This document shows, in pieces, positions 975 through 21,964 of a stretch of DNA of 64,000 bases; position 1 is the first letter of the stretch, and each line of letters begins with the position of its first letter. Source of the stretch: Crystallibacter degradans (GTDB lineage: Bacteria; Actinomycetota; Actinomycetes; Actinomycetales; Micrococcaceae); NCBI RefSeq assembly GCF_012952295.1, contig NZ_JABBCH010000001.1, positions 558,001 through 622,000 on the forward strand. Direction: 5' to 3'. The notes beneath the pieces were generated by a model. The model saw nothing but the letters and a program-made list of their open reading frames with translations. It was not told the origin of the DNA and made no database searches. A program made the translations under genes and the position numbers.

Positions 975-2354
975 CTAACCTGCGGCAGGCACCCGGATCA
1001 GCTTCTTGTTCACGAATTCGGCCATGCCGTACTTGGCCAGCTCGCGGCCGACGCCGGAGCGCTTGACGCCGCCGAAAGGCAAATCGGCCTGTGAATCTGC
1101 CACGGAATTGATAAACACCATGCCGGTGTCCAATCGGTCGGCAACTTCTTTGGCTTTCTCTACATCGGCGCTGAAAACGGCTCCACCGAGCCCGTAGGGC
1201 GACCCGTTCGCCAGTTCGATGGCTTCCTCGGCATCCCGCACCTTGTAGATGACGGCGGCAGGGCCAAAAAGCTCTTCCGAGTAGGCACGCATGCCGGGCT
1301 TCACGCCGGTGAGGACAGTCGGTTCCACGTAAGCTCCCGGTCCTTCGACAAGCTTGCCGCCCGTGAGCAGTTCAGCGCCCTTGTCGACCGCATCCTGAAC
1401 CTGTTCGATCAGTTCTTCGGCGGCACCCTGCGATGACAGGGGGCCGAAGCGCGTTTCGGGCTTCAGCGGGTCGCCCGGCTCGACCCTCGCCATCCGCTTG
1501 GTGAATTTATCCACGAATTCTTCATAGAGGTCCTCGACGATGATGAACCTCTTGGAGGCAGTGCAGGCCTGGCCGGCGTTGCTCATGCGCCCGCCGACAG
1601 CAGCCTTGACCGTTGCGTCCAGGTCCTCGGAGTCCAGCACAATGAACGGATCGCTTCCGCCCAGCTCGAGCACATACTTCTTCAGGTGGCGGCCCGCCAC
1701 CTCCGCCACCGCGGAGCCGGCACGCTCGCTGCCTGTCAGGGAGACGCCCTGGACGCGCGGATCAGCGATGATTTCGGCGACCTGCTCGTTGGTCGCAAAT
1801 ATGTTGACGTAGGCGCCGTCGAGCAGGCCGGCGTCCCGGAAGATTTCTTCCATCACGATCGCCGACTGCGGGCAGTTCCGCGCGTGTTTGAGCAGGATCG
1901 TGTTTCCCAGCATCAGGTTCGAAGCGGCGAACCGGGCCACCTGATAGTAGGGATAGTTCCAGGGCATGATGCCGAGCAGCACTCCGATCGGGGCCGAACG
2001 GACAACGGCCTCTCCGCCACCCTTGACGGTCAGCAACTCGTCGTCCATGAATGCCGGACCTTCAGTTGCGTAGTACTCGTAAATGTCCGCGACCAGCCCG
2101 ATTTCGCCCTTGGCCTGGCTGACCGGTTTGCCCATTTCCAAACTGATGATTCTTGCCAGTTCATCCCGGCGCTCCCGGTAGAGCTCGGCCACACGCAGCA
2201 GGACGGCAGTTCGCTCCGGAACAGCACTTTGCCGCCATGAATCATAGGCCGTCTGTGTTTTCTTGAGTGCCCCGGAAATTTCTTCATCGTTGGCAGCTGC
2301 GAATTCCTGCAGCGTTTCGCCGGTCGCAGGATTTATACTCTTGTAGTAAGTCAT
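975..2354 (-). CDS. NAD(P)-dependent aldehyde dehydrogenase, succinate-semialdehyde dehydrogenase type
   Basis: 459 residues. It oxidises an aldehyde to an acid using NAD(P). Start taken as ATG at 2354 (MTYYKSINPATGETL), the normal GabD N-terminus; the open frame runs 33 codons further upstream without family similarity. Visible motifs are PWNYPYYQ, the catalytic Glu in LELGGSDPF and the catalytic Cys in NAGQACTASKR. It is divergent from a GntR regulator gene (172 bp away) and its 3' end faces a hairpin. Next to an amine-oxidising operon the likely substrate is an amino- or semialdehyde (inference). Family assignment is sure, substrate is not. Confidence 0.88.
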   Translation of the reverse strand: MTYYKSINPATGETLQEFAAANDEEISGALKKTQTAYDSWRQSAVPERTAVLLRVAELYRERRDELARIISLEMGKPVSQAKGEIGLVADIYEYYATEGPAFMDDELLTVKGGGEAVVRSAPIGVLLGIMPWNYPYYQVARFAASNLMLGNTILLKHARNCPQSAIVMEEIFRDAGLLDGAYVNIFATNEQVAEIIADPRVQGVSLTGSERAGSAVAEVAGRHLKKYVLELGGSDPFIVLDSEDLDATVKAAVGGRMSNAGQACTASKRFIIVEDLYEEFVDKFTKRMARVEPGDPLKPETRFGPLSSQGAAEELIEQVQDAVDKGAELLTGGKLVEGPGAYVEPTVLTGVKPGMRAYSEELFGPAAVIYKVRDAEEAIELANGSPYGLGGAVFSADVEKAKEVADRLDTGMVFINSVADSQADLPFGGVKRSGVGRELAKYGMAEFVNKKLIRVPAAG

Positions 2355-2400
2355 GCTTTCAAAAATATCGGCAGGAAGACTGCATATCCAGCGAATTTGA

Positions 2401-2441
2401 GACATTTCTTGATATGTCGTAGTGATAATTGGATGATATGT
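2401..2441. promoter_or_regulatory. Candidate GntR operator repeats
   Basis: The divergent region between the aldehyde dehydrogenase and gntR genes holds two direct copies of TGATATGT (2410-2417 and 2434-2441) spaced 24 bp apart. The first lies within GACAT(8)ATGTC (2401-2418), an inverted repeat. Position suggests binding by the adjacent GntR protein. No experimental motif is known to me for it. Confidence 0.35.
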
Positions 2442-2526
2442 GGCAGCAACCATAAAGTAGAATGCTTCATAAGCGATTCGCCGGAAACCCGACGTCCAAC
2501 TGTCGCCCAGTAGAAGGGAGAAAATC

Positions 2527-3288
2527 GTGGCCTCACCGCCGGCGCTGCAGTCCCAGATTTATCGCTCCCTGCCCGAAAAGGAACGGTCCGAGGCGATAGT
2601 CCAGAGGATATCCACGGCGATTGCCCTGGGCATGCTCCGCGTCGGCGAGCGCCTGCCCGTGGAATCCGAGCTTTCCGACATGTTCGGCGTAGCGGGAGCC
2701 ACCCTTCGTGAAGCCCTCGCTGAACTAAGGGAACGCGGGGTGGTTGAAACACGGCGCGGCCGCAATGGCGGAACGTTTGTGGTCAAGTCCCCGCAGGCCC
2801 AGGAGCAGCAGCTGCGGAAGTACCTTCGGGACACTTCCATTGCGGACCTGCGGGATCTCGGCGACGAGCAAACTGCCGTGGCCGCAGCAGCTGCCCGGCT
2901 GGCATGTGACCGCGCCCATCCGAAGGATCTGGACCGGCTGGAACAGCTGGCCAAGGCGCTGGCCGACGCCGATTCCCCCGAAACACAGGCGAGATCAGAC
3001 AGCCGCTTCCACATAGAGCTGGCGGTGGTCGCCCAGTCTCCGCGGCTCACAACCCTTGAGATCCGCCTGCAATCCGAGGTCGGCCAGCTTCTGTGGAGCC
3101 CAATCGCCGGTGTGTTCGACCCCGCTACGGCCGCCCGTGAGCATGTGCGGATCGTGGATGCGATCAGGGCGGACGAACCAGACAACGCCCAGCGTTTGGT
3201 TGTCGAACATATCCGGCGGAACACTTACCACCTCATTGACACCAAGCTCACGCTTGCCCATGCAGGCGATGAAGAGGAGATCCCATGA
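2527..3288 (+). CDS. GntR/FadR-family transcriptional regulator
   Basis: 253 residues, GTG start preceded by AGAAGGGAG at ideal spacing. The N-terminal winged helix (about residues 15-85, with GERLPVESELSDMFGVAG and TLREALAELRERGVV) is the GntR DNA-binding domain. The rest is an all-helical FCD-type effector domain (SDSRFHIELAVVAQSPR and EHVRIVDAIRADE carry the usual metal/ligand residues). The stop overlaps the start of the Cache-domain gene (ATGA), so the two are translationally coupled. It probably controls the divergent aldehyde dehydrogenase and itself; effector unknown. Confidence 0.88.
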   Translation: MASPPALQSQIYRSLPEKERSEAIVQRISTAIALGMLRVGERLPVESELSDMFGVAGATLREALAELRERGVVETRRGRNGGTFVVKSPQAQEQQLRKYLRDTSIADLRDLGDEQTAVAAAAARLACDRAHPKDLDRLEQLAKALADADSPETQARSDSRFHIELAVVAQSPRLTTLEIRLQSEVGQLLWSPIAGVFDPATAAREHVRIVDAIRADEPDNAQRLVVEHIRRNTYHLIDTKLTLAHAGDEEEIP

Positions 3289-4001
3289 TTGCGCCCGCCT
3301 CACCCCGCGCCATCAGCAGTGCGACGGCCATCGAGGCATGGCTCAACGAGCTGTACCAGGACCTGTACAACACTGCCCACACGGTGGAAAAACAGCTCGG
3401 AGCAAAAATTCAGGCAGGCATAAAAATATCACCTAAAGACATTACCGGATTACGTGAAATATCCACCGCGTTCCTCAATTCCCATGACATTGTTGTCGGC
3501 GCGGGAGTAATCTTCTCGATCTCGGCAATCAAAGACGCTGAAGGAGTATTGGAATGGTGGTTCAGAACTGATTCGGGAAATATTGAAAAACTCGATTTTG
3601 ATTTAGCTCCCGAGGGCGAACGGTTTTACGATTACGAGCAGCTCCCCTGGTTTTCCATCGCTGCCAAAACCGGCCGGCAATCCATTGCGGGCCCCTATGT
3701 GGACTATCTCGGCTTCGACGAATACATCATGACCTGTACCGTTCCGACCTATGTCCATGGAACCTTCATCGGTGTAACCGGCTGTGACATCCGGATCCGC
3801 GACATTGAAAACAAGTTCATCCCGATTGTCCGCCGGATTCCTGGCGATGCCGCCATCCTGAATGGCCAGAACCGCGTGATCCTGGGCAACTCCGGACGTT
3901 TCATTGTGGGGGAACGGATCAAGGCAGCGCCGGAAGGATTCTGCTTCATACCGCTGAACGTCCCCAACCTGAACCTGCACCTGATCTGCACGGCCGGATG
4001 A
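3285..4001 (+). CDS. Cache (PDC-sensor)-domain protein without membrane segments
   Basis: 238 residues. The middle and C-terminal part looks like a Cache/PDC sensor fold: FYDYEQLPWFSIAAKTG, GPYVDYLG, then TCTVPTYVHGTFIGVTGCD, the classic Cache strand that contacts small ligands such as amino acids or amines. No signal peptide, transmembrane helix or output domain is visible, so it should be a soluble cytoplasmic ligand binder, unusual for Cache domains, which mostly sit outside the membrane. It overlaps gntR by 4 bp, so it may act as a ligand-sensing partner of that regulator (inference). The 3400-3600 part is richer in A/T than its neighbours. It ends 17 bp before the convergent amidotransferase gene. 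Confidence 0.65.
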   Translation: MIAPASPRAISSATAIEAWLNELYQDLYNTAHTVEKQLGAKIQAGIKISPKDITGLREISTAFLNSHDIVVGAGVIFSISAIKDAEGVLEWWFRTDSGNIEKLDFDLAPEGERFYDYEQLPWFSIAAKTGRQSIAGPYVDYLGFDEYIMTCTVPTYVHGTFIGVTGCDIRIRDIENKFIPIVRRIPGDAAILNGQNRVILGNSGRFIVGERIKAAPEGFCFIPLNVPNLNLHLICTAG

Positions 4002-4018: not shown

Positions 4019-4846
4019 TCAGGCGTTGGCCGGCTCCTGCGGCCTGCCCGGCGCAGCCGCCGTATTCAGCCTGCTCTGGCGCACGAACTCTTCAAACAAC
4101 AGGGACCGATCATTCGCGTCCCCGTCCGAGTCCTCCGGATGCCATTGCACGCCGACCACCCAGGTCTTGCCCGGATGCTCCGTACCTTCAACCACACCGT
4201 CCTGTGCCAAAGCGGCAACCTGCAGTTCAGCTGCCACAGTTCCCACCGCTTGATGATGCCCCGAGCGCACGGTGACCGTTGGACGGCCAAGGATGGCCGC
4301 CACCTTCGAGCCGGGAGCCAGGTTCACCTTCTCGTCCAGGAACATCGGTTGTCCCGGTCCCCCGCGGTGCAGATGCCAGGGGTCCAGATCAGGGATCAGC
4401 GTGCCGCCACAAGCTACGTTGAGCAGCTGCGACCCCCGGCAGATGGCGAGCAGCGGCTGGTCCCGCTCCAGCACACCGCGGATCAGTTCCAGACAGTACT
4501 GGTCCGCCCGCAGATCGACTCCGTAGGAATTCCGTACCGGCCCAGTATGGCCATACAACGACGCGTCCACATCGCCGCCGCCCAGAAAGAGGACTCCGTC
4601 GTACTTTGCCAGCTCCGCTTCGGGAGTCAGTTGTTCCGCACCACTGTCCACCAGCTCGGCCCGGGCACCGGCTGCCAGCAGTGTTTCAAACGCGACACGC
4701 GTAAAGCGTTCCATCAGTTCCAGTGTCTGCTGGGTCATCCCGGGGAACGTCAGTGAAACAACGACGGCGACGCGCGGCGCGTCCGCGGGCAGGTGTTCGA
4801 AGGCGGCGGGAACCACGTCCGCGGGGTTGACCCGCAGCCCACTCAC
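4019..4846 (-). CDS. Gamma-glutamyl hydrolase, class-I glutamine amidotransferase type (PuuD-like), copy 1
   Basis: 275 residues, GTG start overlapping the previous stop by 4 bp (GTGA). Peptidase C26 family: nucleophile Cys in LLAICRGSQLLNV, catalytic His-x-Glu in VQWHPEDS, oxyanion Gly stretch in LFLGGGDVD. Family members cut gamma-glutamyl amides, as in 4-(gamma-glutamylamino)butanoate hydrolysis by PuuD of the putrescine pathway. Last gene of the eight-gene amine operon, where a glutamine-synthetase-like ligase could make the gamma-glutamyl substrate. The C-terminus RPQEPANA is an unstructured extension. Confidence 0.85.
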   Translation of the reverse strand: MSGLRVNPADVVPAAFEHLPADAPRVAVVVSLTFPGMTQQTLELMERFTRVAFETLLAAGARAELVDSGAEQLTPEAELAKYDGVLFLGGGDVDASLYGHTGPVRNSYGVDLRADQYCLELIRGVLERDQPLLAICRGSQLLNVACGGTLIPDLDPWHLHRGGPGQPMFLDEKVNLAPGSKVAAILGRPTVTVRSGHHQAVGTVAAELQVAALAQDGVVEGTEHPGKTWVVGVQWHPEDSDGDANDRSLLFEEFVRQSRLNTAAAPGRPQEPANA

Positions 4847-5577
4847 CGGGCACCTGCCAGTTCTGCGGCGACAGCCACGTCACGGCGCTGTCTGGCCGCG
4901 TCGACAACCCAGACAAACAGCGCGTGGTCGGCGGGATTGGTCTCTGCGGTGTCTTCCGGATGCCACTGGACAGCGAGCATGGAAGCTTCCGGCGCTTCGA
5001 GCGCTTCCACCACGCCGTCCGCTGCGATCGCCGTCACTTCCAGGCCTTCACCGAGCGCACCCACGGCCTGGTGGTGGTACGAGGAGACATCCACCTGCCC
5101 GCTGCCGACCACCGTTGCCAACAATGACCCTTCCGAAACCGCAACCGGATGTATCGCATCCTTATGCTGCACGGTTCCCGGCTCCAGATGCTGAAGCAGC
5201 GTGCCGCCACGGGATACGTTGAGCAGCTGCAGGCCGCGGCAGATCGCCAGCAGCGGCACTCCCGCTTCGATGCAGGCGGCCATAATGGCCGATTCATACG
5301 CGTCCTGGCCAGAGTAGTCGGTGGGCCAATAATGTTCGTCCGGTTCTGCTCCGTAAAGCTCGGGCGCCACGTCGGCACCGCCGGGAAGCAGCACGCCGTC
5401 GAAACGGGCAACCTGCTCGGCGGCGCTGTCGCCGCTTCCCGGGAACATCACGACCGGCTCACCGCCGGCAGCGACGATGCAGCGCAGCACCTTGGCTGCC
5501 ACGGCAACGCCATCGAAGCGCAGGCCGTGGACGGAGTTGGACCACATGCCCGGAACGCCGATTAAGGGGCGGCTCAT
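4843..5577 (-). CDS. Gamma-glutamyl hydrolase, class-I glutamine amidotransferase type (PuuD-like), copy 2
   Basis: 244 residues; start taken as ATG 5577 (MSRPLIGVPG), which overlaps the upstream stop as ATGA; the frame extends further only into that gene. Same C26 fold as its downstream neighbour: LLPGGADVAPELYG, nucleophile Cys in LLAICRGLQLLNVSRGG, SSYHHQAV, and VQWHPEDT. The two tandem copies share the core motifs but differ elsewhere, so they are old paralogues with perhaps different gamma-glutamyl substrates or a heteromeric role. Membership in the amine operon is clear from the 4-bp overlaps on both sides. Confidence 0.86.
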   Translation of the reverse strand: MSRPLIGVPGMWSNSVHGLRFDGVAVAAKVLRCIVAAGGEPVVMFPGSGDSAAEQVARFDGVLLPGGADVAPELYGAEPDEHYWPTDYSGQDAYESAIMAACIEAGVPLLAICRGLQLLNVSRGGTLLQHLEPGTVQHKDAIHPVAVSEGSLLATVVGSGQVDVSSYHHQAVGALGEGLEVTAIAADGVVEALEAPEASMLAVQWHPEDTAETNPADHALFVWVVDAARQRRDVAVAAELAGAR

Positions 5578-6302
5578 ACTGCTACCTCCGCCGCCAGCGG
5601 GTACGGCAGGTGCGGCATCCACTTGGTCCAGACCCGCTCCAGCCGCCCGTCCGCCACCACCGTTGCCAGTGCCGCGTTGAGCTCGGCCAGCAGGAACGGG
5701 TTGTCCTTGGCCACCCCAATCCCCCACCGGTTACCCGTGGGGTGCGTGAAGGCGACATCGTACGCGGGCTCTTCCCCAAGCGGCACGGTCACGACGTCGT
5801 CGTCCACCATGGCATCCACCTCACCGTTGCGCAGGGCCGCCAGCATCTCCCCGAACACGTCCGCGCCGTTGAAGGCGACCGGTTCGGCTCCCTCGAAGGT
5901 GACAGCCAGTTTCATGTTGGCGCTGCCCTCGATCGCCGCGACCTTGTAGCCAACCAAGTCCTCCGGCGAGCGGGCCGGATCGCCCTTGCGCACCAGCACG
6001 GTTTCGTCGAACACGGCGTACGGGTCGGTAAAGTTCACCACGGCCTGGCGTTCCGGGATGATGCCCTGGCCGCACCAGACCGCATCCACCCGGTGGTCGC
6101 GCACGGCGGGGAGCATGTCGTCCCAGTCCAGGTACGTCCACTCGATGCGCAGGCCCAGCACGGAGGCGACCAGCTCGGCCGCCTCCGGCTCGTACCCGCG
6201 GCGGTTGCCGTGGTCGTCGGCCAGGTTGAACAGCGGCGGCGCCTCGGAGTCGATACAGGCCAAACGCAGGATGCCAGCTGAAAGAGTCTCGACGCGGCTC
6301 AC
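5574..6302 (-). CDS. Solute-binding-protein family 3 fold protein lacking a signal peptide
   Basis: 242 residues from GTG 6302, which overlaps the upstream stop as GTGA; an 11-codon longer frame exists but would lie inside the upstream gene. It matches the amino-acid-type periplasmic binding fold (SBP_bac_3): LACIDSEAPPLFN, GYEPEAAELVASVLG, DDMLPAVRDHRVDAVW, FTDPYAVFDETVLVRKGD, GYKVAAIEGSANMK. No signal peptide, lipobox or partner ABC genes are present, so it is probably cytoplasmic. Some proteins of this fold are enzymes (cyclohexadienyl dehydratase) or sensors; an enzymatic or ligand-buffering role in the amine pathway is possible but unproven. Confidence 0.78.
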   Translation of the reverse strand: MSRVETLSAGILRLACIDSEAPPLFNLADDHGNRRGYEPEAAELVASVLGLRIEWTYLDWDDMLPAVRDHRVDAVWCGQGIIPERQAVVNFTDPYAVFDETVLVRKGDPARSPEDLVGYKVAAIEGSANMKLAVTFEGAEPVAFNGADVFGEMLAALRNGEVDAMVDDDVVTVPLGEEPAYDVAFTHPTGNRWGIGVAKDNPFLLAELNAALATVVADGRLERVWTKWMPHLPYPLAAEVAV

Positions 6303-7732
6303 GGAATGGTCTCCCAGTACATCTCGCGGTCCCATTCAGTGATGGCGCCGCAGTAGCGGGCCCACTCCTCCTGCTTCAGTTGGGTGTAGATCGATACCAG
6401 GTCCGCCGGCAGTGCCGACGTGAGGTACGTATCAGAGACGAAGGCGTCGATCGCGTCGCCCAAGGTGAGCGGCAACTGGCCGCCGAGGGCCGGAACGTCC
6501 GCACCGCCGTCGTCGGCCATACCTGGATCCAGCCGGCGGTTCAGTCCGTCCTCCATCGCGGCAATGAGCAGCGTGTGCGACAGGTACGGGTTCACGGCGG
6601 CGTCCGGAACCCGGTACTCCATCCGGCCGTTGGAGGAGATGCGCACCAGGCAGCCGCGGCTATCCAAGCCCCAGTTTGCGGTGCTGGGGGCGAACTGGCC
6701 GGCGTCCCAGAACCGCTTGTAGGAGTTGACGGTGCTGGCCATGACCGCCATCGAACCGGGAGCATGTGTGAGCAGACCGCCGATGGCGTGCCTGGCCGTC
6801 TCGGAAACGTGCAGTTCCACCCTGCCGTCGTCCTCGATGACGTTGGTGTTCCCGTCCCAGAGGCTCAGGTTGTGGTGGCAGCCGTTGCCCATCTGGCCGT
6901 TGTAGGGCTTGGGCATGAAGCTGGCGGTGACGCCGAATTCGCGGGCCACCTGCTTACAGATTTGGCGGTAGGTGACCAGCCGGTCTGCGGTGTTTTCCAC
7001 CCGGTCGTACATCCAGTTGAGCTCAAGCTGGCCGTCGTCTTCGTAGTCTCCCTCGATCATGTCCAGGCCCATGGCCTTGGCGTAGGTAACCAGTTTCTTG
7101 TAGATCGGACGCATCCGCTCCAGGTTCTCCACCTGGTAAGCCGGGCTGGTGCCGGGCTTCTTGACCACCTCGAGACCTGGGCCTTCCCAGGTCATCTCGG
7201 GTTCGGTTCCGGAGCGGACCTCGAAGCCAGTGCGGGCGGTGAAGGCCTCGTGCGAGCGGATCAGCAGTGAGCGGGTGTCGATCGGCAGGAGGCGGCCGCC
7301 GACTTCAGGCAGGTGCGGGGGCTCGTAGGCGGTGCAGAAGATCCGCGCCACCGAGGTGTCCCAGGGCAGCACCACAAATGTATCCGGCTCCGGCAGTGCC
7401 CAGAATTCGCGGGCCTCGATGCCGCCGCCGATCAGGTTACCGTGGCGGTCATTCTGCAGGTCGGACAGCGCCGTCCGGTGGAAGCAGATGCCCTTTTCCA
7501 AGTTGCGCTTGAAGTGGTTGGCCGGGACCATCTTGGCCACCATGCGGGAGCCGATGGTCGGCAGCGCGTAGTACACATACTCGACGCCGGCCTCCTCGAT
7601 CTTGCGGCCGAGGTCGCGCACGGTTTCGGGACGCAGGTTGCGCTCCTGGTGCCGCGCAAAGGCGCCGCGGTCGTTGAGGGATTGCTGCAGGTCGTTGGCG
7701 GCCAGGTCGGGCCGTACGGGGGTGAGTGTCAT
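6299..7732 (-). CDS. Glutamine-synthetase-family ligase (gamma-glutamyl-amine synthetase type)
   Basis: 477 residues. Members of this family condense glutamate with ammonia or an amine using ATP. Active-site landmarks are EGDYEDDGQLELNW (metal/glutamate ligands), NGQMGNGCHHNLSLW, NSYKRFWDAGQFAP and NGRMEYRVPDAAVNPY. It lacks the adenylylation-tyrosine region expected of housekeeping GlnA and resembles GlnA-like enzymes that gamma-glutamylate alkylamines or polyamines. From memory, a GS-like gene also accompanies the morpholine/piperidine P450 genes of mycobacteria. It sits 34 bp downstream of the ferredoxin reductase and overlaps the binding-fold gene by 4 bp. The amine substrate is not known. 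Confidence 0.88.
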   Translation of the reverse strand: MTLTPVRPDLAANDLQQSLNDRGAFARHQERNLRPETVRDLGRKIEEAGVEYVYYALPTIGSRMVAKMVPANHFKRNLEKGICFHRTALSDLQNDRHGNLIGGGIEAREFWALPEPDTFVVLPWDTSVARIFCTAYEPPHLPEVGGRLLPIDTRSLLIRSHEAFTARTGFEVRSGTEPEMTWEGPGLEVVKKPGTSPAYQVENLERMRPIYKKLVTYAKAMGLDMIEGDYEDDGQLELNWMYDRVENTADRLVTYRQICKQVAREFGVTASFMPKPYNGQMGNGCHHNLSLWDGNTNVIEDDGRVELHVSETARHAIGGLLTHAPGSMAVMASTVNSYKRFWDAGQFAPSTANWGLDSRGCLVRISSNGRMEYRVPDAAVNPYLSHTLLIAAMEDGLNRRLDPGMADDGGADVPALGGQLPLTLGDAIDAFVSDTYLTSALPADLVSIYTQLKQEEWARYCGAITEWDREMYWETIP

Positions 7733-7766
7733 GATGGTCTTCTTTCTCGTCAGTGTGCGAAGCCGG

Positions 7767-9020
7767 TCAGACGGCAGCCAGGTCGGCGCCGGCGGGGATG
7801 CCGGATTCGTTCACGAGCTTGCGGTAGTGCAGTTGGCGGTCAGCCGGCAGAGCGGCGGTCACCGCGCCGATCAACCGGCCGTCGCGGTAGTAAGCCAGGG
7901 CGGTTCCCTCCCAAGGGCGGGAAGGGTCGCCTTCGAGAACCTCGATGGTGTCGGCCAGAGCGGGGCTGCCCACTCCTTGGATTCGGGTCTTGAAGATGTC
8001 GGTCCAGAAAGACGGCATCGGTGCCGCCGGCTGAGGAACAACGTCGCCCTTGAGGCCCGCCACCAGTGCCGGCGCGGCGATTTTGGCCGTATCGGCCGGA
8101 GTGGCCCAATGCTCGACGCGGCGGGCAGGTCCGCCGGCGCGACGATCCGGATACCGGGCTACGTCGCCCACCGCAACCACATGTTCCGCTCCGAGCACCT
8201 GGAGGTGTTCGTTGCAGAGCGCACCGTCGCTGAGGTCCAGCCCGTTTCCCGCCAGCCACTCGACGTTCGGCAGCGAGCCGACGGCCTCAATAACGACGTC
8301 GGCGGCTACTTCCGTACCGTCCTCGAGCCGGACACCTGCACAGCGCCCGGAGCCTTCGGTGTAGGTTCCGGGCACGTCCAGGAACTCGGTGACCCGTTTG
8401 CCGGCCACACAGTCAATGCCGTGCGTCTGCAGGAAGGTCCGGATGCCCGCGCTCAGTTCGTGACCGAGCGGGCGCTCCATCGGACCGCCGGCCCCCTCGA
8501 TGAGCGTGACCTTGCAGCCGAGGGCGGCAGCTGTCGCGGCCGCCTCGCATCCGATGAAACCGGCGCCGATGACCGCCACCTTGGACCTGGACGTCAGCTC
8601 GCCGTGCAAGGCCAGAGTGTCCTCGAGACGGCGAATCACGTGGCGTCCGGCGGTGGGTCCCGGAACGGGTACTCGCCTGGGTCGGAGCCCGGTGGCAATC
8701 ACCAGTCCGTCGTAGACAAGTTCTTCGCCGCTATCCAACGTCAGTGTGCGGGCCGCGAGATCTGCCGCAGTAACCGCGCATCCGAGCCGCCATTGAATAT
8801 CGGTGGCCGTGCGGCGTTGCCGAAGCTGTACCGCGGCAAGCGCATCCTCGCGGGATCCGGGTGCGGCGAGCAGGTCCTTGGACAGCGGCGGTCGGTTATA
8901 GGGCGGGTGGGTCTCATCGCCGACGACGACGATCTCGTCCTCCCAGCCGGCCGCGCGCAACTGTTCGGCGGCGCGCAGTCCTCCCATCGAGGCTCCGGCG
9001 ATGACTATTCTGCGGCTCAT
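7767..9020 (-). CDS. NAD(P)H:ferredoxin reductase of the P450 electron chain (FAD)
   Basis: 417 residues from ATG 9020 (MSRRIVIAGASMGG), one base past the ferredoxin stop. Flavoprotein of the putidaredoxin/rhodocoxin reductase class: N-terminal FAD site GASMGGLRAAEQL, RPPLSKDLL, second dinucleotide site VIGAGFIGCEAAATAAALG for NAD(P)H, and FAD-binding AVGDVARYP. It passes electrons from NAD(P)H to the adjacent 3Fe-4S ferredoxin for the P450. The C-terminal reductase domain (SFWTDIFKTRIQGVG) is complete. The arrangement P450-ferredoxin-reductase is a full class-I system. Confidence 0.9.
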   Translation of the reverse strand: MSRRIVIAGASMGGLRAAEQLRAAGWEDEIVVVGDETHPPYNRPPLSKDLLAAPGSREDALAAVQLRQRRTATDIQWRLGCAVTAADLAARTLTLDSGEELVYDGLVIATGLRPRRVPVPGPTAGRHVIRRLEDTLALHGELTSRSKVAVIGAGFIGCEAAATAAALGCKVTLIEGAGGPMERPLGHELSAGIRTFLQTHGIDCVAGKRVTEFLDVPGTYTEGSGRCAGVRLEDGTEVAADVVIEAVGSLPNVEWLAGNGLDLSDGALCNEHLQVLGAEHVVAVGDVARYPDRRAGGPARRVEHWATPADTAKIAAPALVAGLKGDVVPQPAAPMPSFWTDIFKTRIQGVGSPALADTIEVLEGDPSRPWEGTALAYYRDGRLIGAVTAALPADRQLHYRKLVNESGIPAGADLAAV

Positions 9021-9021
9021 G

Positions 9022-9213
9022 TCAGTCCTTGAGGAAGATAGCCTGGACCGGACAGACGTCGATGGCTTCCTCCACCTCGTCCAGCAGTGCGTCGTCGAAA
9101 GTTGCCTCGTACTCGAGCTCGCCGTCGGCATTCATCCGGAAAACGTCCGGCGCGGCGATAGCGCACTGGCCGTGGTTGTCGCAGAGGGTGCGGTCTACGT
9201 CGATGGTCTTCAT
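9022..9213 (-). CDS. 3Fe-4S ferredoxin of the P450 system
   Basis: 63 residues, start ATG 9213. Three cluster cysteines are visible: C11 and C17 in CDNHGQC and C54 in DVCPVQAI. The usual second Cys of the first motif is replaced by His (H14), the signature of single 3Fe-4S ferredoxins that serve actinobacterial P450s. It is acidic, as expected for docking to reductase and P450. It lies 40 bp downstream of the P450 gene and 1 bp upstream of the reductase gene. Confidence 0.92.
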   Translation of the reverse strand: MKTIDVDRTLCDNHGQCAIAAPDVFRMNADGELEYEATFDDALLDEVEEAIDVCPVQAIFLKD

Positions 9214-9253
9214 CGGTGTTGTCCTTCCTAAAGTATTGCTGTGTTCAGGGCCG

Positions 9254-10453
9254 CTAGGACCGCTTGGTGAAGCCGATGGGCAGCCGGATCGGACCGGTGT
9301 TGCCCGAGTCCGGCAGCCACTCGTCCCCGCCGGTCAGGTACGGCTGGGCAATGCGGCTGGCCAGCAGCGGCAACGCCTCGCTCATGTCCGCGCGGGCCAC
9401 GAAGTGCCCCAGGCAGTGGTGGACTCCGCCGCCGAACCCGTAGTGCGGAGCGTGCTCGCCGAGCAGGTCCATTTCCGGGTTGGGGAAAGCCTTCGGATCA
9501 GTGCCTGATGACTGGGTGAACAGGTGGACCGTGGTGCCTTTTTCGATGAACAGGTCCTGGTAGGTGAAGTCCTCGACTGCTTCCCGGGTCACCCAAGTAA
9601 CCGTGGGATTGATCCGCATGACTTCTTCGACGGCCTTGCCGCCCAAGTCCGGGCGTTCAGCCAGCAGCTCCCACTGCTCCGGGTTGTGCATGAAGGACTG
9701 CATGGCCAGTCCAAGCTGGTTGCGCGTGGTGTCCATGCCGCCAAAAATCAGCAGGACCAGCGCGTTGCGCAGCTCCTCGTCGCTGAGCCGGTCTCCGTCC
9801 CGGTTGGCCAGTACCAGGCGGCTGACGAAGTCTTCGCCCGGATTGGCCTGGCGGTCCTTGATCAGTCCCTCGGCGTATTCATAGAGCTCGGCGACGGCGG
9901 CGTCCACCTTGTCCAAGTCCTGCTTGAAGGTCACGCCCAGCGCCAGCCCCACGGTGGAGGCCAGCCGGGCGATCGTCGGCCATTCGCTTTCCGGAATGCC
10001 CAGCAGGATGGTCAGCACCCGCGTGGCATAGGGTTCGGCGAAGTCCCGGATGAACTCGCATTCGCCCTTGTCGATGAAGGAGTCGATCAGCTCGTTCGCC
10101 AGGACTTGGAAGCGCGGCACCAGGTCCTTGATCAGCCGGGGAGAGAAGGCCGGGTTGAGCAGGCGCCGGATCCGGTGGTGGTCCTCGCCCTCCAGTACCA
10201 GCAGGTTCTTGGTCCACCAGTCGTAGAAAAGCCCGCCGTGGACGCCGTTGTGCGCCGGCCACTTGGCGCTACCCTGCGAGAGCTTGGGACTCTTGAGCAG
10301 CTTGCTGACCTCGTCATACCGCAGCACGGCGATGCCGTAATTGGTCCGTGCGTACCAGCTCTGCTCCCGGGCTGCCCGCAGCTCTTCGGACTGCATGGCG
10401 AACGATGGATCCGAGATGTTCAGGTAGGGAACCTGGACGGTAGGCGTACTCAT
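9254..10453 (-). CDS. Cytochrome P450
   Basis: 399 residues from ATG 10453 (MSTPTVQVPYLN); the open frame upstream of this is not P450-like. Soluble bacterial P450: I-helix GGMDTT (238-243), ExxR pair E277/R280, heme-ligand motif FGGGVHHCLG with Cys347. It is a monooxygenase fed by the neighbouring ferredoxin and reductase. Linkage to a GS-like ligase and a downstream 5-aminovalerate/glutarate pathway suggests hydroxylation next to nitrogen of a (cyclic) amine, as the CYP151/MorA enzymes do for morpholine, piperidine and pyrrolidine; membership of that subfamily has not been checked. Confidence 0.92.
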   Translation of the reverse strand: MSTPTVQVPYLNISDPSFAMQSEELRAAREQSWYARTNYGIAVLRYDEVSKLLKSPKLSQGSAKWPAHNGVHGGLFYDWWTKNLLVLEGEDHHRIRRLLNPAFSPRLIKDLVPRFQVLANELIDSFIDKGECEFIRDFAEPYATRVLTILLGIPESEWPTIARLASTVGLALGVTFKQDLDKVDAAVAELYEYAEGLIKDRQANPGEDFVSRLVLANRDGDRLSDEELRNALVLLIFGGMDTTRNQLGLAMQSFMHNPEQWELLAERPDLGGKAVEEVMRINPTVTWVTREAVEDFTYQDLFIEKGTTVHLFTQSSGTDPKAFPNPEMDLLGEHAPHYGFGGGVHHCLGHFVARADMSEALPLLASRIAQPYLTGGDEWLPDSGNTGPIRLPIGFTKRS

Positions 10454-10508
10454 GATGTGGAACCTGTTTCTTTCTTTGCTGTTGGAACTGAAAGGCGCGG
10501 CAGCCGCG

Positions 10509-12023
10509 TTAGGGCTTGAGGGAATGTGCCGGCGCGGCGGGGACCGCATCGCCGAAGGGTGCGTCGCCCTTGAGGTAGGGCTTCTTCCACGCCATGTAGA
10601 CCAGGCCGATTACGACGACGCCGACCGCAGAGATCAACACGATGTAGTTGGAGAACCAGCCGGCTTCCGGGGTCCGCGGCCAGGCCATGTTGACCATGCC
10701 GAGCACACCCCAGGTCAGTGCCGCTACGTAGATGGGGGTGCCCCAGGCGCCCAGCTGGAAGGCACCGCGTGGCTTCCAGCCCTTGAGCCGTGCACGCAGC
10801 GCCGCGAGCACCACCATCTGGAAGCCCATGTACATACCCATGGCGGCGAAGGAAATGATGGTGATCAGGGCATCCTCGGAAACCTTGGAGCCGATCACGA
10901 TCAGTGCCGGAACCAGGCCGGCCAGCAGCAGGGCATACGGCGGAACGTGGCGGGTTTCGCTGAACTTGCTGAGCAGTTTGCTGGCGGGAAGAATGCCGTC
11001 ACGGGCCATGGAGTAGGCCAGGCGGGAGGATGCCGCCTGCAGGCTCAGGACGCAGGAAACAAAAGAGATGAGCACGACGGCGAGCACTACCTTGAAGCCG
11101 ACAGGTCCGAAAGCCGAGAGCAGCACGTTGCCGACCGGATCGGCGTCGGCGCCGCTGATCACTGCGCCGAAATCGGGAACGGCAAGGATCAGGGACAGGC
11201 AGACGAACATCGCCGCGAAGCCACCAATGTAGATGGTCATCCGCATAGCCTTCGGGATGGTGCGTCCGGGGTTCGGGACCTCTTCAGCGACGTCGCCGCA
11301 GGCCTCGAACCCGTAGTACTGGTAGATGCCGATCAGTCCCGCCGCCGCAAAGGCGATGAAGTAGTTGCTACCTTCGCCTGCCCCGAAGCTCTGGAACAGT
11401 ACGCCCAGATCGTGTTCGCGGGCCGCCACCATCAGCCAGATACCGACTACCAAAGCGCCGCCCAGCTCGGCGAGCAGGCCGAGCATGGCGACCTTGTTCA
11501 GGACTTTGGTGCCGCCAAGATTCAGCAAGGTCGCCAGCAGGATGACGGCCAGGGCAGCCATGATCACGGAGTTGACACTGCTCTCCATCCCCAGCAGGGA
11601 GCTGAGGAAGGGGCCGGAGCCGTAGGCAACACTGGCAATGGTTGCCAGCAGTGCGCACAGGTACACCCAACCGTTCATCCAGCCCCACTTGCGGCCCCAC
11701 AGTCGGCGGGACCACGGGTACACCCCGCCGGCCACCGGGTAGTTGGAAACAACTTCCCCGAAGACCGTGGCGACCAGCAGCTGGCCGACGCCGACAATGA
11801 TCAGCGACCAAAACATCGGCGGCCCGGCGATTCCGAGCGAGGCTGCGAACAGCGAATAGATACCAACAACGGGGGACAGATAAGTGAAGCCCAGGGACAC
11901 ATTCCCCCAGAACGTCATTTCGCGCTTGAATTGCTGATCGTACGAGTAACCGAGGCTGGCGAGGTGTGCGGCATCTTCATCGATGCCGGTCTCCCCAGCA
12001 GGCTTCGTCATTTCGGCAGACAT
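10509..12023 (-). CDS. APC-family amino acid/amine permease
   Basis: 504 residues, ATG 12023 behind GAGAAGGAGAG. About 12 hydrophobic segments begin after MTFWGNVSLGFTYLSPVVGI; the APC motif GxAGPPMFW is present (SLGIAGPPMFWSLII) and YYGFEACGDVAEEVPNPG is the family loop. Imports an amino acid or amine across the inner membrane, likely with protons. First gene of the eight-gene operon running to 4019; the 55-bp gap to P450 shows no terminator. Being first, it probably brings in the operon substrate. A palindrome lies 84 bp upstream. Confidence 0.88.
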   Translation of the reverse strand: MSAEMTKPAGETGIDEDAAHLASLGYSYDQQFKREMTFWGNVSLGFTYLSPVVGIYSLFAASLGIAGPPMFWSLIIVGVGQLLVATVFGEVVSNYPVAGGVYPWSRRLWGRKWGWMNGWVYLCALLATIASVAYGSGPFLSSLLGMESSVNSVIMAALAVILLATLLNLGGTKVLNKVAMLGLLAELGGALVVGIWLMVAAREHDLGVLFQSFGAGEGSNYFIAFAAAGLIGIYQYYGFEACGDVAEEVPNPGRTIPKAMRMTIYIGGFAAMFVCLSLILAVPDFGAVISGADADPVGNVLLSAFGPVGFKVVLAVVLISFVSCVLSLQAASSRLAYSMARDGILPASKLLSKFSETRHVPPYALLLAGLVPALIVIGSKVSEDALITIISFAAMGMYMGFQMVVLAALRARLKGWKPRGAFQLGAWGTPIYVAALTWGVLGMVNMAWPRTPEAGWFSNYIVLISAVGVVVIGLVYMAWKKPYLKGDAPFGDAVPAAPAHSLKP

Positions 12024-12338
12024 TGCTCTCCTTCTCAACGGTGAGTCAAAGCAGTAAGTCGGATGGAAGCGGTCTGTACCCCAACGCGGAACCCCCATGT
12101 CCCTTCGTGATGCACATCACGTGACCGCGATCACTGAAAAACTCTACTAATGAATGTTTATTCTGGCAAGGGCTGGATCTCGCGCCATCGACCAAGACGG
12201 AAGCAGCGGGCTTCTTCTCGCGTGGAATCAGAGGACTTTCAAAGGCGAGGGACCCGGAAACGGCGCACATTTGCAGCCGCAGACCGGACCAGCAAAAAGC
12301 TTCGCTTCCGACGTATTTTCCCTATCGCTGCATGGATT
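12024..12338. promoter_or_regulatory. Operon leader with palindromic operator candidate
   Basis: Upstream region of the amine operon. It contains GTGATG-CA-CATCAC (12107-12120), a perfect 14-base inverted repeat, followed by a looser CGTGACCGCGATCAC. These would lie near the promoter of the permease gene and are a natural operator for a GntR- or MarR-type protein. The part 12150-12338 contains only overlapping frames without recognisable product. Confidence 0.45.
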
Positions 12339-13229
12339 TCAGAGCACCGGCCAGGCGCGGCGGCTCAGATCGTAGGCTTCCCAGGCACGGGGAACGAGGT
12401 CGAAGGCGGCGTCGCAGATCCGGCGGAGCTGCTCCATACTCCCGGCGGGAAGCTGCTCCGGGCCAGGCACCCGGTCTGGATCGGGATAGCTGTTCCCGAT
12501 GGAAGCAGCCCACTCCAGCCCATGTGAGTACCCGCTGCAGAACTGCCAGACAAAGATCAGCTCGGCCGGCACATCGCCGTCGGAACGCAGGTCCTTCAGG
12601 ATGGCCGTCTGCGTGCGGTTCTTCGTGGCATAGCCCCAGTTACCGCTCGCCTTCCGGCTAAAAACCGGCGGCAGCAGCATCGACTCCGCCGCGTCATTGA
12701 CCGCTTGGCGCAGCCCGTCGAAGTACTCCACGGCGTGGGCATGCTCGCCGGGCCGGAACTCTTCGAGGTAAGCGTCCCAAAAGGACGAGGCATTGAAGAC
12801 CTCCCGAGCGATGAGGACCAGGCTCCGGCGGGAACGTTCGCGCCCATCTTCCGGCAGCAGCGCCCAAAGCACTGTCGTCGCGCACTCGATGATGGTCCGC
12901 ACCAGCGAGTAGGGGGCATGGGTATTCTGCCGGTAATAGACGGGTCCGCCGGGATCTTCGACGAATACCAGCCGCCGCAGCGCGTTGGCGTTGTCCGTGA
13001 CGGCGGCCAGTGACTGCCGGACGATGCGGCTGACACTGTGCGAGGGGGCGAACCGCTCGTCGAGCAGGAACAAGGGAGACTTGGGCTCAATCCGGTCGCC
13101 GTCCGACTCCCGGCACAGCAACGGCGCCAGCTCCCGCAGGCGCGCCAGGATGGCCTGCGCTGCGAGGCTTTCCGCATCCGCCCCGTCCAGCCGGCCCGCA
13201 CAATCAGGGGGAACCTGCGCGTCCTGCAT
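12339..13229 (-). CDS. Conserved-looking hypothetical protein
   Basis: 296 residues. ATG 13229 is preferred because AGGA lies 8 bases upstream; a TTG two codons earlier is the alternative. I do not recognise the family. The sequence is soluble, mostly helical and mildly acidic, with DERFAPSHSVSRIVRQS, YYRQNTHAPYSLVRTIIEC and FVWQFCSGYSHGLEW. No signal peptide, membrane helix or known catalytic motif. It is transcribed toward the amine operon leader and diverges from the permease at 13344, so it sits between the two amine clusters without clear membership in either. Confidence 0.72.
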   Translation of the reverse strand: MQDAQVPPDCAGRLDGADAESLAAQAILARLRELAPLLCRESDGDRIEPKSPLFLLDERFAPSHSVSRIVRQSLAAVTDNANALRRLVFVEDPGGPVYYRQNTHAPYSLVRTIIECATTVLWALLPEDGRERSRRSLVLIAREVFNASSFWDAYLEEFRPGEHAHAVEYFDGLRQAVNDAAESMLLPPVFSRKASGNWGYATKNRTQTAILKDLRSDGDVPAELIFVWQFCSGYSHGLEWAASIGNSYPDPDRVPGPEQLPAGSMEQLRRICDAAFDLVPRAWEAYDLSRRAWPVL

Positions 13230-13269
13230 GGGCAAAATCCTAGTCCCTCGGACAGTCTGACCAGCACGC

Positions 13270-13343: not shown

Positions 13344-14795
13344 ATGACCGAACGGCTGGTTGTCAAAACAGCACGGGCCCCGGAAGCCAAGCTCAAGCGC
13401 GTCCTCAGCCACTGGGACACCTTGGCCATCGGCGTCGGCGCGATGATCGGCTTCGGCTGGGTTGTCCTGACCGGCGGCTGGATTGAAGGGGCCGGCACGT
13501 TCGGCGCGGCGGCCGCGATGCTTGCCGGCGGCATCATCATGGCCGTCGTCGGGCTGACCTACGCCGAGCTCGTCGCCGCCATGCCGTTTGCGGGCGGCGA
13601 GCACAACTACCTGCTCCGGTCGATGGGCGCGCGCTGGTCCTTCATCGGGTCCTGGGCGATCACGGGCGGCTACATCACTATTGTGGCGTTCGAGGCGGTG
13701 GCGCTCCCGCGGACCGCGCTGTATCTCTTTCCGGAGCTGAACAAGGTCCGTCTCTGGGAAGTTGCCGGCGCCGAGGTCTATCTCAGCTGGGCGCTGGTAG
13801 GCGTGATTGCCGCCGTCGTTATTACGGCCATCAACATCCTGGGTGTCAAGATCGCCGGCACGGTCCAGCTGTTCGTCATCCTGTTCCTCTTCGCGGTAGG
13901 CGCCCTGCTCCTGTTCGGCTCCACCACTGGCGGCAGCGCGGACAACATGGAACCGTTCTTCAACAACGGCTGGGCCGGTTTCTTCGCCGTACTGGTCATT
14001 GTGCCGTTCATGTTTGTGGGTTTCGACGTGATTCCACAGTCCGCCGAGGAAGTGAACATTCCAGCGAAGAAGGTTGGCAAGCTGGTGGTCATCTCCGTGC
14101 TGATCGCGGCTGTCTGGTACGTCGCCGTCATCCTGACCACCTCGTCGGCCATGCCCGGGTCCGAACTGGCCGCAACGGAACTGGCCACTGCGGATGCCAT
14201 GGGCGCCCTGTTCAACTCCGATCTCATGGCCAAGGTCCTCATCGCCGGCGGCATCGCCGGCATCCTGACCTCATGGAACTCGCTGCTGATGGGCGCATCC
14301 CGACTGCTCTACGCCATGGCGAACTCGGGCATGCTCCCGGCCTGGTTCGGCAAGCTCCATCCGAAGTTCCGCACCCCGGTCAACGCGCTGCTCTTCATCG
14401 GCGGCCTCTCCGTCCTGGCCCCGTTCTTCGGCACGGCGATGCTCGGCTGGCTGGTTGACTCCGGTTCCCCCAGCATTGTCATTGCGTACCTGCTGGTCGG
14501 CATCGCCTTTGTCATCCTGCGCCGGAAAGAGCCGCAGATGGACCGGCCGCTGCGTGTCGGCGGAAAGCGCAACGGCGGCATCTGGATTGGCGGCGCCTCC
14601 GTCCTGCTGTGTGCCGGGCTGCTGAGTCTCTACATCCCGGGAATGCCCGCTGCCATCGGCGGCGCCCCGTGGACCTTGTTCGGCCTATGGTGGGTCCTCG
14701 GTGCCATCTTCCTGTTCCGCATTCCGGCCGGCATCAAGGGCGGCCCGAACGCCGAAGACGAACTGCACGCAAGGCTGGCCGCACGCCGTCGCTGA
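13344..14795 (+). CDS. APC-family permease, probably for 5-aminovalerate/GABA or related amino acid
   Basis: 483 residues, ATG after AAAGGATGGA. Hydrophobic throughout with about 12 membrane segments; typical first-helix APC motif AIGVGAMIGFGWVV, and LTYAELVAAMPFAGGEHNYL in helix 2-3. Cytoplasmic-membrane secondary transporter. It is followed 55 bp later by a CaiB-type CoA-transferase and belongs by context with the GabT/GcdH genes. The substrate is inferred from those neighbours, not from residues. Confidence 0.86.
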   Translation: MTERLVVKTARAPEAKLKRVLSHWDTLAIGVGAMIGFGWVVLTGGWIEGAGTFGAAAAMLAGGIIMAVVGLTYAELVAAMPFAGGEHNYLLRSMGARWSFIGSWAITGGYITIVAFEAVALPRTALYLFPELNKVRLWEVAGAEVYLSWALVGVIAAVVITAINILGVKIAGTVQLFVILFLFAVGALLLFGSTTGGSADNMEPFFNNGWAGFFAVLVIVPFMFVGFDVIPQSAEEVNIPAKKVGKLVVISVLIAAVWYVAVILTTSSAMPGSELAATELATADAMGALFNSDLMAKVLIAGGIAGILTSWNSLLMGASRLLYAMANSGMLPAWFGKLHPKFRTPVNALLFIGGLSVLAPFFGTAMLGWLVDSGSPSIVIAYLLVGIAFVILRRKEPQMDRPLRVGGKRNGGIWIGGASVLLCAGLLSLYIPGMPAAIGGAPWTLFGLWWVLGAIFLFRIPAGIKGGPNAEDELHARLAARRR

Positions 14796-14850
14796 CCCGC
14801 ATGCTGGCTCCCGACACCAGACCTACCGCCGCCCCGGCAGAAGGAATTTC

Positions 14851-16035
14851 ATGAATACCACCGGCTCCCCCGACCCCACGACATCCGGCAAGCTGCCCCT
14901 CGACGGGATCGTCGTCGCGGACTTCTCCCGCGTCCTCGCCGGCCCGCTGGCCACCATGACCCTGGCTGACCTCGGCGCCCGGGTGATCAAGGTGGAACGG
15001 CCCGGGGCCGGGGACGACACCCGCACATGGGGTCCGCCGTACTCGGCCACGGGGGCGACGTACTTCGAGAGCGTGAACCGGAACAAGGAGTCCGTCTGCC
15101 TCGACCTGACCGACGACGGCGACCGCGTGCTGGCGCGGAAGCTCGCCGCCCGGGCCGACGTCCTCGTAGAGAACTTCAAACCGGGCGGGATGGACAAACT
15201 CGGGCTCGGCTATGAAGAACTGAGCCGCGAAAACCCGGGGCTGGTCTACGCCTCCATCACCGGGTTCGGCAGCAGCGGCGGCGCGGACCTGCTCGGCTAC
15301 GACTTCATTGTCCAGGCGCTCGGCGGGCTCATGAGCATCACCGGCGAGGCGGACGGCGGCCCGATGAAGGCCGGCGTCGCCCTGGTGGACGTGCTCACGG
15401 CGAAGGACACGACCATCGGCGTACTGGCGGCGCTGAATGCCAGGGCCGCCACCGGACGCGGTGCGCATCTGGAGCTGAACCTGCTCTCCAGCCTGCAGGG
15501 CGCACTGGCCAACCAGGCCCAGGCGTACCTCGGAGCGGGCAAGGTCCCGGGCCGGATGGGCAACGGGCACCCGTCCATCGTTCCGTACCAGTTGCTCCAG
15601 TGCGAAGACGGGCCGTTGGCGGTGGCGTGCGGCAACGACGGCCAGTTCCGGAAGCTCGCGGCCGTAATCGGTTCGCCCGGGCTCGCCGACGACGAGCGGT
15701 TCGCCACCAACAGCGCCCGCGTGGCCCACCGCGAGGAACTGGTCACGATCCTGGAGGCAGCCCTCGCTACCGCCGGCGCGCAGATCTGGCAGGACAAGCT
15801 CAACAGTGCCGGCGTACCGGCCGGACACGTAGCCGGTATCGACGACGGCCTGCAGTTCGCCGAGTCCCTGGGCCTGAACCCGACCATCGAAGTGCACACG
15901 CCGGACGGCACTCCGGTGGGCCGCCAGGTCCGCCACCCAGCCACCTGGACTCCCCCGCTGCCGCCGCGCACCGCCGCGCCGCCCCAGCTGGGCGAACACG
16001 ACGACGCCGTCCGGGCCTGGCTCGCGGAGAACTGA
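14851..16035 (+). CDS. CaiB/BaiF-family (class III) CoA-transferase, probable glutarate CoA-transferase
   Basis: 394 residues from ATG 14851 (MNTTGSPDPT), SD AGAAGGAA; the longer open frame overlaps the permease and is not used. Family features: LPLDGIVVADFSRVLAGP at the N-terminus, ADLGARVIKVERPGAGDDTR, and a VALVDVLTAKD stretch containing the expected nucleophilic Asp. These enzymes move CoA between acids. With glutaryl-CoA dehydrogenase and a GabT/DavT enzyme nearby, the best guess is glutarate activation from succinyl-CoA, as the mammalian SUGCT does (inference). Ends before a strong hairpin facing pucR. Confidence 0.86.
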   Translation: MNTTGSPDPTTSGKLPLDGIVVADFSRVLAGPLATMTLADLGARVIKVERPGAGDDTRTWGPPYSATGATYFESVNRNKESVCLDLTDDGDRVLARKLAARADVLVENFKPGGMDKLGLGYEELSRENPGLVYASITGFGSSGGADLLGYDFIVQALGGLMSITGEADGGPMKAGVALVDVLTAKDTTIGVLAALNARAATGRGAHLELNLLSSLQGALANQAQAYLGAGKVPGRMGNGHPSIVPYQLLQCEDGPLAVACGNDGQFRKLAAVIGSPGLADDERFATNSARVAHREELVTILEAALATAGAQIWQDKLNSAGVPAGHVAGIDDGLQFAESLGLNPTIEVHTPDGTPVGRQVRHPATWTPPLPPRTAAPPQLGEHDDAVRAWLAEN

Positions 16036-16053
16036 CCCCGCACCTAGCGATGG

Positions 16054-21957: not shown

Positions 21958-21964
21958 GGAACTT

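Follow-up and report, generated by a model that had tools for sequence, protein, structure and literature searches.

The operon and its surroundings

We analysed a stretch of 64,000 nucleotides from Crystallibacter degradans (assembly GCF_012952295.1, contig NZ_JABBCH010000001.1, positions 558,001 to 622,000; hereafter the window), in which an initial annotation had described an eight-gene amine-oxidation operon at 4019–12023. All eight genes are present on the minus strand, with gaps of 55, 40, 1, 34, −4, −4 and −4 bp calculated from their coordinates, including the three reported 4-bp overlaps. The series begins with an APC-type amino-acid/amine permease (10509–12023; Pfam AA_permease_2, 2.1e-42), a CYP151-like cytochrome P450 (9254–10453; p450, 3.3e-27), a ferredoxin of 63 amino acids (9022–9213; Fer4_15/Fer4_13) and a ferredoxin reductase dependent on flavin adenine dinucleotide (FAD; 7767–9020; Pyr_redox_2, 4.3e-56; Reductase_C at 23.7 bits, just under the cut-off of 25). 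The ferredoxin carries a CxxHxxC...CP pattern, which we take to be of the 3Fe-4S type. These are followed by a glutamine synthetase (GS)-like gamma-glutamyl ligase without the FDGSS motif (6299–7732; Gln-synt_C, 9.1e-71), an apparently cytosolic protein with a solute-binding protein (SBP) fold of the SBP3 type (5574–6302; SBP_bac_3, 8.8e-28) and two Peptidase C26 proteins of the gamma-glutamyl hydrolase type (a, 4843–5577, Pfam 4.2e-54; b, 4019–4846, Pfam 1.3e-42).

Convergent with the operon, on the plus strand, lie a GntR/FCD regulator found by family searches (2527–3288) and, overlapping it by 4 bp, a stand-alone dCache-type sensor with amine-motif positions (3285–4001; PF22673, 6.6e-12). 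Beyond this pair is an aldehyde dehydrogenase gene resembling succinate-semialdehyde dehydrogenase (975–2453, minus strand; NF006915, 508.7 bits against a cut-off of 730). The functional unit exceeds 4019–12023: it also includes the GntR and cache genes and the glutarate-branch genes within 13344–22837 described below, and probably the aldehyde dehydrogenase at 975–2453.

A P450 probably of the CYP151 type

The closest solved relatives of the P450 were 3p3l and 3p3o (244 and 242 bits), with a CYP125-type enzyme next at 163 bits, and the best NCBIfam model, a terpenoid synthase, reached 117 against a cut-off of 700. This lead over the CYP125 type, with the terpenoid model so far under its cut-off, speaks against a steroid or terpene P450, and we set that reading aside; the initial annotation had named grouping with such enzymes as a result that would count against its proposal. 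Membership of the CYP151 family requires more than 40% identity to a named CYP151 member. We take 3p3l to be AurH, which is listed as a CYP151A (PMC7369989).

A scan of named genomes returned 193 relatives of the P450, of which we kept the best 80, at 60–99% identity; all counts of loci out of 80 concern these only. The nearest named loci belong to Arthrobacter sp. VKM Ac-2550 (99%) and A. mangrovi (93%). Searching 14 named genomes at E≤1e-60 gave one match each at 62–68% identity, with six further matches at 33–35% in three of them. Of 198 mycobacterial genomes, with nine candidates scored in each, 24 gave a hit at E≤1e-75; identity was 58–66% for the full-length hits. Four Gulosibacter P450s were 53–59% identical to ten mycobacterial ones, a range that became 51–59% once Zimmermannella and Leucobacter members were added. 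The published identities of the Gulosibacter P450s, about 53% to PipA and 52% to MorA (PMC9477822), fit these values, which most likely places PipA and MorA in the same clade as the window P450. By this transitive identity, rather than by direct alignment with PipA or MorA, the P450 is classed as CYP151-like. Separate ferredoxin and FAD reductase genes, recognized by Pfam, adjoin it as in class I systems, in agreement with the PipA/MorA-kind P450 system that had been annotated.

The gene set recurs in close relatives

A search of 118 genomes, made up of the window's own genome and relatives, returned the GS-like protein in 16 at E≤1e-80; each of the nine same-genus genomes listed is among these. 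Eight of these nine carry the eight genes in the same order; in the ninth (L025) the contig starts inside the reductase gene and the remaining genes are in order. Across the 80 P450 loci we found the GS-like gene in 75, an SBP match in 75, the ferredoxin in 62, the reductase in 45, the permease in 65, at least one C26 gene in 70, GntR and cache genes in 69 each, the GntR–cache pair in 68, and a relative of the aldehyde dehydrogenase at 975–2453 (at least 49% identity) in 22. Thirteen loci, some of them from Leucobacter and Gulosibacter, have a gene that we named flavodoxin-like from its sequence, and neither ferredoxin nor reductase was found in them. In 73 of the 75 GS-bearing loci the SBP gene comes immediately after the GS-like gene, on the same strand; in L050 and L052 the contigs end inside the GS-like gene, and the SBP match of L050 is weak (25% identity) and lies away from it. 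Of the five loci without the GS-like gene, three (L055, L061, L084) stop soon after the P450 or reductase gene, L103 has the P450 and an SBP match, and L108 has the P450 alone. Four loci (L076, L088, L093, L094) come from Litchfieldella, Aidingimonas and Chromohalobacter, presumably Halomonadaceae; the remaining loci bear actinobacterial names or are metagenome-assembled genomes of that phylum.

This recurrence, in order within the genus and for the most part across the 80 loci, indicates that the arrangement is more than chance. The combination of a binding-fold protein with two hydrolases, initially described as an unfamiliar layout, is not isolated and is found again in the closest relatives. 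In a phylum sample of 396 genomes, the window's own included, the SBP family occurred in four genomes and the P450 in three, all three shared; one of the three shared SBP frames is interrupted by an internal stop. The fourth SBP (L146, 8181–8870), from a distant actinobacterium, had no P450 or GS relative within the 18 kb taken. Scoring was limited to the top 4 to 9 candidates per genome both in the phylum sample and in the mycobacterial search, so that absence in either is soft.

Two genes near these clusters were also seen. Six Leucobacter loci (L091, L095, L106, L109, L112, L113) have an agmatine-deiminase-like gene, named from its sequence, near the P450 cluster. In the window, a gene for a 298-aa protein adjoins the operon (12339–13235); its relatives lie near the P450 in 4 of the 80 loci, and Pfam and NCBIfam searches with it gave no match.

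The ligase and the hydrolases

Glutamate–methylamine ligase (9qur, 200 bits) was the closest solved relative of the GS-like protein, and no equivalog cut-off was reached in the NCBIfam search. The FDGSS motif belongs to the ammonium site of GS. By our own reading of the alignment columns it is missing in 74 aligned members of this family, and it is present in both other GS genes of the genome. We infer that the acceptor of the ligase is an amine or an amino-aldehyde, and the earlier proposal of a GS-like ligase beside a morpholine/piperidine-type P450, with an amine as likely substrate, is supported. The Puu equivalog models remained under their NCBIfam cut-offs (PuuA 195 of 650 bits, PuuC 248 of 850, PuuD 74 and 94 of 266). 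Among open-licence papers, we found no account of the SBP, C26 or cache genes in CYP151 loci.

A binding-fold protein that apparently stays in the cell

In all 72 loci measured, the GS stop codon lies no more than 83 nt (median 20) ahead of the first conserved Cys codon of the SBP, too short a distance for a signal peptide to fit outside the GS gene. The N-terminus of the window protein is of low hydropathy, and no secretion signal or lipobox was recognized by spacing and hydropathy, a signal-peptide predictor not being part of this analysis. The eight operon genes include no ABC permease or ATPase. We therefore rejected a role as part of an ABC importer, and the protein apparently remains inside the cell.

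Residues R85, S127 and D167–D169 are invariant in 74 members, as are C77, Q79, W55, W60, E100, N129 and W193. In an alignment with the ancestral binder 4zv1, R85, S127 and D168 fall opposite R, S and D, which we take to be its amino-acid clamp. The AlphaFold model (pLDDT 92.5) was nearest to amino-acid-binding proteins and to AncCDT-1, which its entry gives as a precursor of cyclohexadienyl dehydratase; that enzyme arose from a binding protein. Judged from sequence and model, the protein keeps the amino-acid clamp and would fit either binding or catalysis.

The cache sensor and regulation

In all 68 loci having both genes, the cache gene lies directly 3' of the GntR gene. Hydropathy indicated no membrane helix in the cache protein. 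Its model (pLDDT 92.1) best matched the structures of McpX, putrescine-bound McpU and PctD; amino-acid receptors follow from rank 9 onwards with E-values close to these, and the best sequence match, a weak one, was the amino-acid-type receptor 4xmq. The amine motif dCache_1AM is defined by W155, F188, Y189, M215, S217 and D235 of PctD, with no carboxylate-binding Arg (PMC10104139). We read the corresponding positions as W91, W122, F123, I148, T150 and D168, by spacing and an alignment with PctA rather than with PctD; T150–D168 retains the 18-residue spacing of S217–D235. Across all 34 sequences W91, T150 and D168 do not vary, and Leu or Met occupies the position of the carboxylate-binding Arg in 30 of 34; the R103–D133 pair was not located.

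Upstream of the permease are two tandem CRP-like GTGA-N6-TCAC sites (12107–12134). They are the only two matches in the 64-kb window, where 0.66 would be expected, and 12 of 100 shuffles reached two. A palindrome of this form occurs in 9 of 12 permease upstream regions, which suggests CRP-type control. A search for a 9-mer common to the GntR and permease upstream regions found none that recurred.

A neighbouring candidate 5-aminovalerate/glutarate branch

Next to the operon lies a group of genes that could convert five-carbon (C5) intermediates. It comprises, on the plus strand unless noted, a second APC permease found by family searches (13344–14795); a CaiB-type CoA-transferase (14881–16035, start approximate), for which the nearest model was succinate–glutarate CoA-transferase (NF052585, 351 bits, cut-off 750); a PucR-family regulator recognized by Pfam (16118–17755, minus strand); a GABA/5-aminovalerate-type transaminase (17790–19217; NF004714, 614.7 bits, cut-off 639); a glutaryl-CoA dehydrogenase (19219–20424, start approximate); an aldehyde dehydrogenase and candidate glutarate-semialdehyde dehydrogenase (20488–21957; aldehyde dehydrogenase families, the 25 shown all under their cut-offs); and a 3-hydroxyacyl-CoA dehydrogenase, probably acting on 3-hydroxybutyryl-CoA (21965–22837; Pfam 3HCDH; NF004474, 284 bits, cut-off 408). 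No member of this group passed an NCBIfam cut-off. Against solved structures, the CoA-transferase matched the succinate-hydroxymethylglutarate CoA-transferase 9br6 at 280 bits, in third place after an unnamed CaiB protein and a formyl-CoA transferase. The solved relatives of the transaminase were GabT (487 bits). Both best solved relatives of the glutaryl-CoA dehydrogenase bear that name (549 and 521 bits), and it scored 183 bits with the NCBIfam model GlutCoADH_Des, under the cut-off of 470.

Relatives of the branch recur near the 80 P450 loci, with the CoA-transferase in 23, the glutaryl-CoA dehydrogenase in 19, the transaminase in 9 and the aldehyde dehydrogenase of 20488–21957 in 13. Any of the four was found in 29 of 80 loci compared with 0 of 20 control stretches, a count that covers 1.37 Mb near P450 loci and 0.37 Mb of controls, with identity limits chosen after a first look at the data and several of the loci close kin. 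Co-location was seen in Arthrobacter, Specibacter, Streptomyces, Microtetraspora, Nocardioides, Gulosibacter, Zimmermannella and Mycolicibacterium. Piperidine breakdown would be expected to lead into such a branch, that of pyrrolidine or morpholine less so, and the presence of the branch makes a C5 ring, piperidine, the more likely substrate. From the amine-oxidation operon first proposed, the P450 chain, the ligase and the amine are retained, and the likely substrate becomes more specific.

Relatives on plasmids

Gordonia KTR9 plasmid pGKT2 (L115:12476-19487) carries a GntR gene, a cache gene, a CYP151-like P450 (60% identity), a GS-like gene and a second P450. The GS frame reads without a stop into the annotated FAD oxidoreductase gene that precedes the second P450; we take these two genes to be xplB and xplA of RDX degradation. 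The RDX locus of pGKT2 thus seems to have been built onto a cluster of pip/mor-like kind. The Paracoccus and Ruegeria plasmids each combine the P450 with a pair of GS genes, and that of Streptomyces clavuligerus combines it with one. The Ruegeria plasmid (L119:6379-19182) has its P450, two GS genes, an ABC transporter and a glutamine-amidotransferase gene between two transposase genes. Following Paracoccus sp. TOH as a lead to the substrate yielded none. On two further Streptomyces plasmids (L120:8357-12092 and L121:8385-12144) a CYP151-like P450 with ferredoxin and reductase lies inside ectA/ectB/ectC-type clusters, near a gene for a phosphopantetheine-binding protein; these clusters possibly make a modified ectoine. 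The excerpts of PMC10820124 (on RDX) and PMC10301208 (on CYP151) held nothing bearing on the function of the cluster.

Proposed route and points against it

We propose that the locus forms a catabolic island that degrades a cyclic secondary amine, here most likely piperidine, through a gamma-glutamylated intermediate, and give this reading a probability of roughly 0.55. Gene content, protein families, conservation and co-location are observed; the individual reactions and their sequence, the substrate, the sensing and what the SBP does are what we infer. The gamma-glutamyl chemistry and its order are deduced from protein families and gene order. A cyclic amine is likely as the substrate class and piperidine probable as the substrate. 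The permease would import the amine and the cache–GntR pair would sense it. Supplied by the reductase and ferredoxin, the P450 would hydroxylate the carbon adjoining the nitrogen, and the hemiaminal would open to 5-aminopentanal. The GS-like ligase would then join glutamate to the freed amino group at the expense of ATP, so that re-closure to the cyclic imine is prevented. An aldehyde dehydrogenase would produce gamma-glutamyl-5-aminovalerate, from which one or both C26 enzymes would release glutamate and 5-aminovalerate. The neighbouring genes could take 5-aminovalerate through glutarate semialdehyde, glutarate, glutaryl-CoA and crotonyl-CoA to acetoacetyl-CoA. The apparently cytosolic SBP-fold protein may bind the gamma-glutamyl intermediate as a partner of the ligase. 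In favour of the proposal, the P450 bioI of Gulosibacter molinativorax and its reductase are reported up with a log2 fold change above 6, and the GS genes adjoining its two PipA-like P450s by number are reported overexpressed, on molinate, a source of a seven-membered ring amine (PMC9477822).

Several observations weigh against this reading. In the branch, the CoA-transferase, transaminase and glutaryl-CoA dehydrogenase, as well as both aldehyde dehydrogenases, score under NCBIfam equivalog cut-offs, and none of the genes scanned was recognized as an enoyl-CoA hydratase. The four branch genes are out of reach in 51 of the 80 P450 loci, some on short contigs and others on long ones. A CoA-transferase relative at E≤1e-50 occurs in all 25 cluster-bearing genomes searched, so that its position alone counts as evidence; in favour of the proposal, the best match is no farther than about 27 kb from the cluster in 14 of the 25. 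The Halomonadaceae loci have the GS–SBP pair and the P450 on opposite strands, some kilobases apart. Of the seven plasmid P450 stretches, none has an SBP relative, four have a GS-like gene (Gordonia, Paracoccus, Streptomyces clavuligerus, Ruegeria) and three have no GS match (Rhodococcus opacus and the two Streptomyces with ectoine-type genes). Together with the orphan SBP of L146, the plasmids indicate that the pairing of the SBP with the GS-like gene and P450 is not absolute, and that the full gene set is a feature of the closest relatives that becomes looser with distance. In Gulosibacter molinativorax grown on molinate, the second P450 (pipA) is not significantly overexpressed, and molinate growth was contrasted with a rich medium, LB (PMC9477822).

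A broader claim, that CYP151-type amine loci hold an unrecognised gamma-glutamyl shunt in which the cytosolic SBP is the dedicated partner of the ligase, we advance tentatively, at rather less than even odds. The protein might then be a carrier or regulator for the intermediate, or an enzyme evolved from a binding protein. The four plasmid loci with a GS-like gene and no SBP lower the odds of a dedicated partner.

Alternative explanations

The ligase might act first, making a gamma-glutamyl amide of the ring amine that the P450 then hydroxylates next to the nitrogen. The Puu and methylamine routes start with the ligase, the closest solved GS relative is a glutamate–methylamine ligase, and the clamp residues of the SBP would suit a gamma-glutamyl amide. 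However, free morpholine was oxidized by recombinant MorA with its partners (PMC9477822), and we regard this order as unlikely, though it deserves serious consideration.

We hold it to be similarly doubtful that the substrate is another amine (pyrrolidine, morpholine, azepane or an acyclic one), the glutarate branch serving lysine or 5-aminovalerate and adjoining the operon for other reasons. PipA is linked with piperidine, MorA with morpholine, and the Gulosibacter relative with growth on molinate (PMC9477822), and the many P450 loci with the branch out of reach would fit this explanation. The recurrence of branch co-location across eight genera, set against its absence from the 20 controls, speaks against it.

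An ordinary, ammonium-assimilating GS that captures nitrogen freed by the pathway is very improbable. The Gulosibacter GS genes 438 and 3052, which adjoin P450 genes 437 and 3051 by locus number and are overexpressed on molinate, were interpreted in this way by the authors (PMC9477822), but we set this role aside here because the genome has two other, FDGSS-bearing GS genes, and the present family lacks the motif and sits with C26 hydrolases. A biosynthetic cluster in which the P450 tailors a small N-heterocycle is equally remote: two plasmid relatives lie inside ectoine-type clusters and the solved relative 3p3l is presumably the CYP151A enzyme AurH, but two hydrolases, an aldehyde dehydrogenase, a permease, a putative amine-motif sensor and a catabolic branch next door argue for catabolism.

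At 33986–36397 the window also encodes an 803-aa protein resembling XPB helicase and a primase-polymerase model, both under cut-off.

Comparison with known systems and implications

PipR of the pip loci is a GntR-type regulator, and judged on layout the window has the GntR, P450, ferredoxin and GS-like genes together as pip-type loci do. With the mycobacterial pip/mor loci (CYP151 PipA, MorABC) it shares the P450, ferredoxin and GS-like gene; the SBP-fold gene, the two C26 hydrolases, the cache protein with its putative amine motif and the C5 branch are additional to what the papers found describe for such loci. Operons of CYP151-pipA, fdx and glnA are mentioned for Mycobacterium (PMC10516948), and the Gulosibacter molinativorax loci, as described, pair PipA/MorA-like P450s with GS genes of adjoining number (PMC9477822). 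The Puu putrescine pathway of E. coli has in common a permease, a GS-like ligase, an aldehyde dehydrogenase, a C26 hydrolase and a GABA-type transaminase, but it uses a flavin amine oxidase (PuuB) where the window operon has a P450 chain. In aniline operons (AtdA1/A2), GS-like and amidotransferase-like genes lie beside a dioxygenase; ligase, hydrolase and oxygenase are combined as in the window, with a dioxygenase there and a P450 here. The ligase's closest solved relative is gamma-glutamylmethylamide synthetase, whose partners differ from those found here. The locus is probably a conserved cluster of the pip/mor kind for the catabolism of cyclic amines, accompanied here by a C5 branch, with a gamma-glutamyl part that we did not find described.

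If this reading is true, it would give a reason why a GS-like gene adjoins morpholine/piperidine-type P450 genes, and would propose a full set of genes leading from a ring amine into central metabolism. The conserved, apparently non-secreted binding-fold protein would become a testable question, and the potential of soil actinobacteria to degrade cyclic amines would be easier to read from their genomes.

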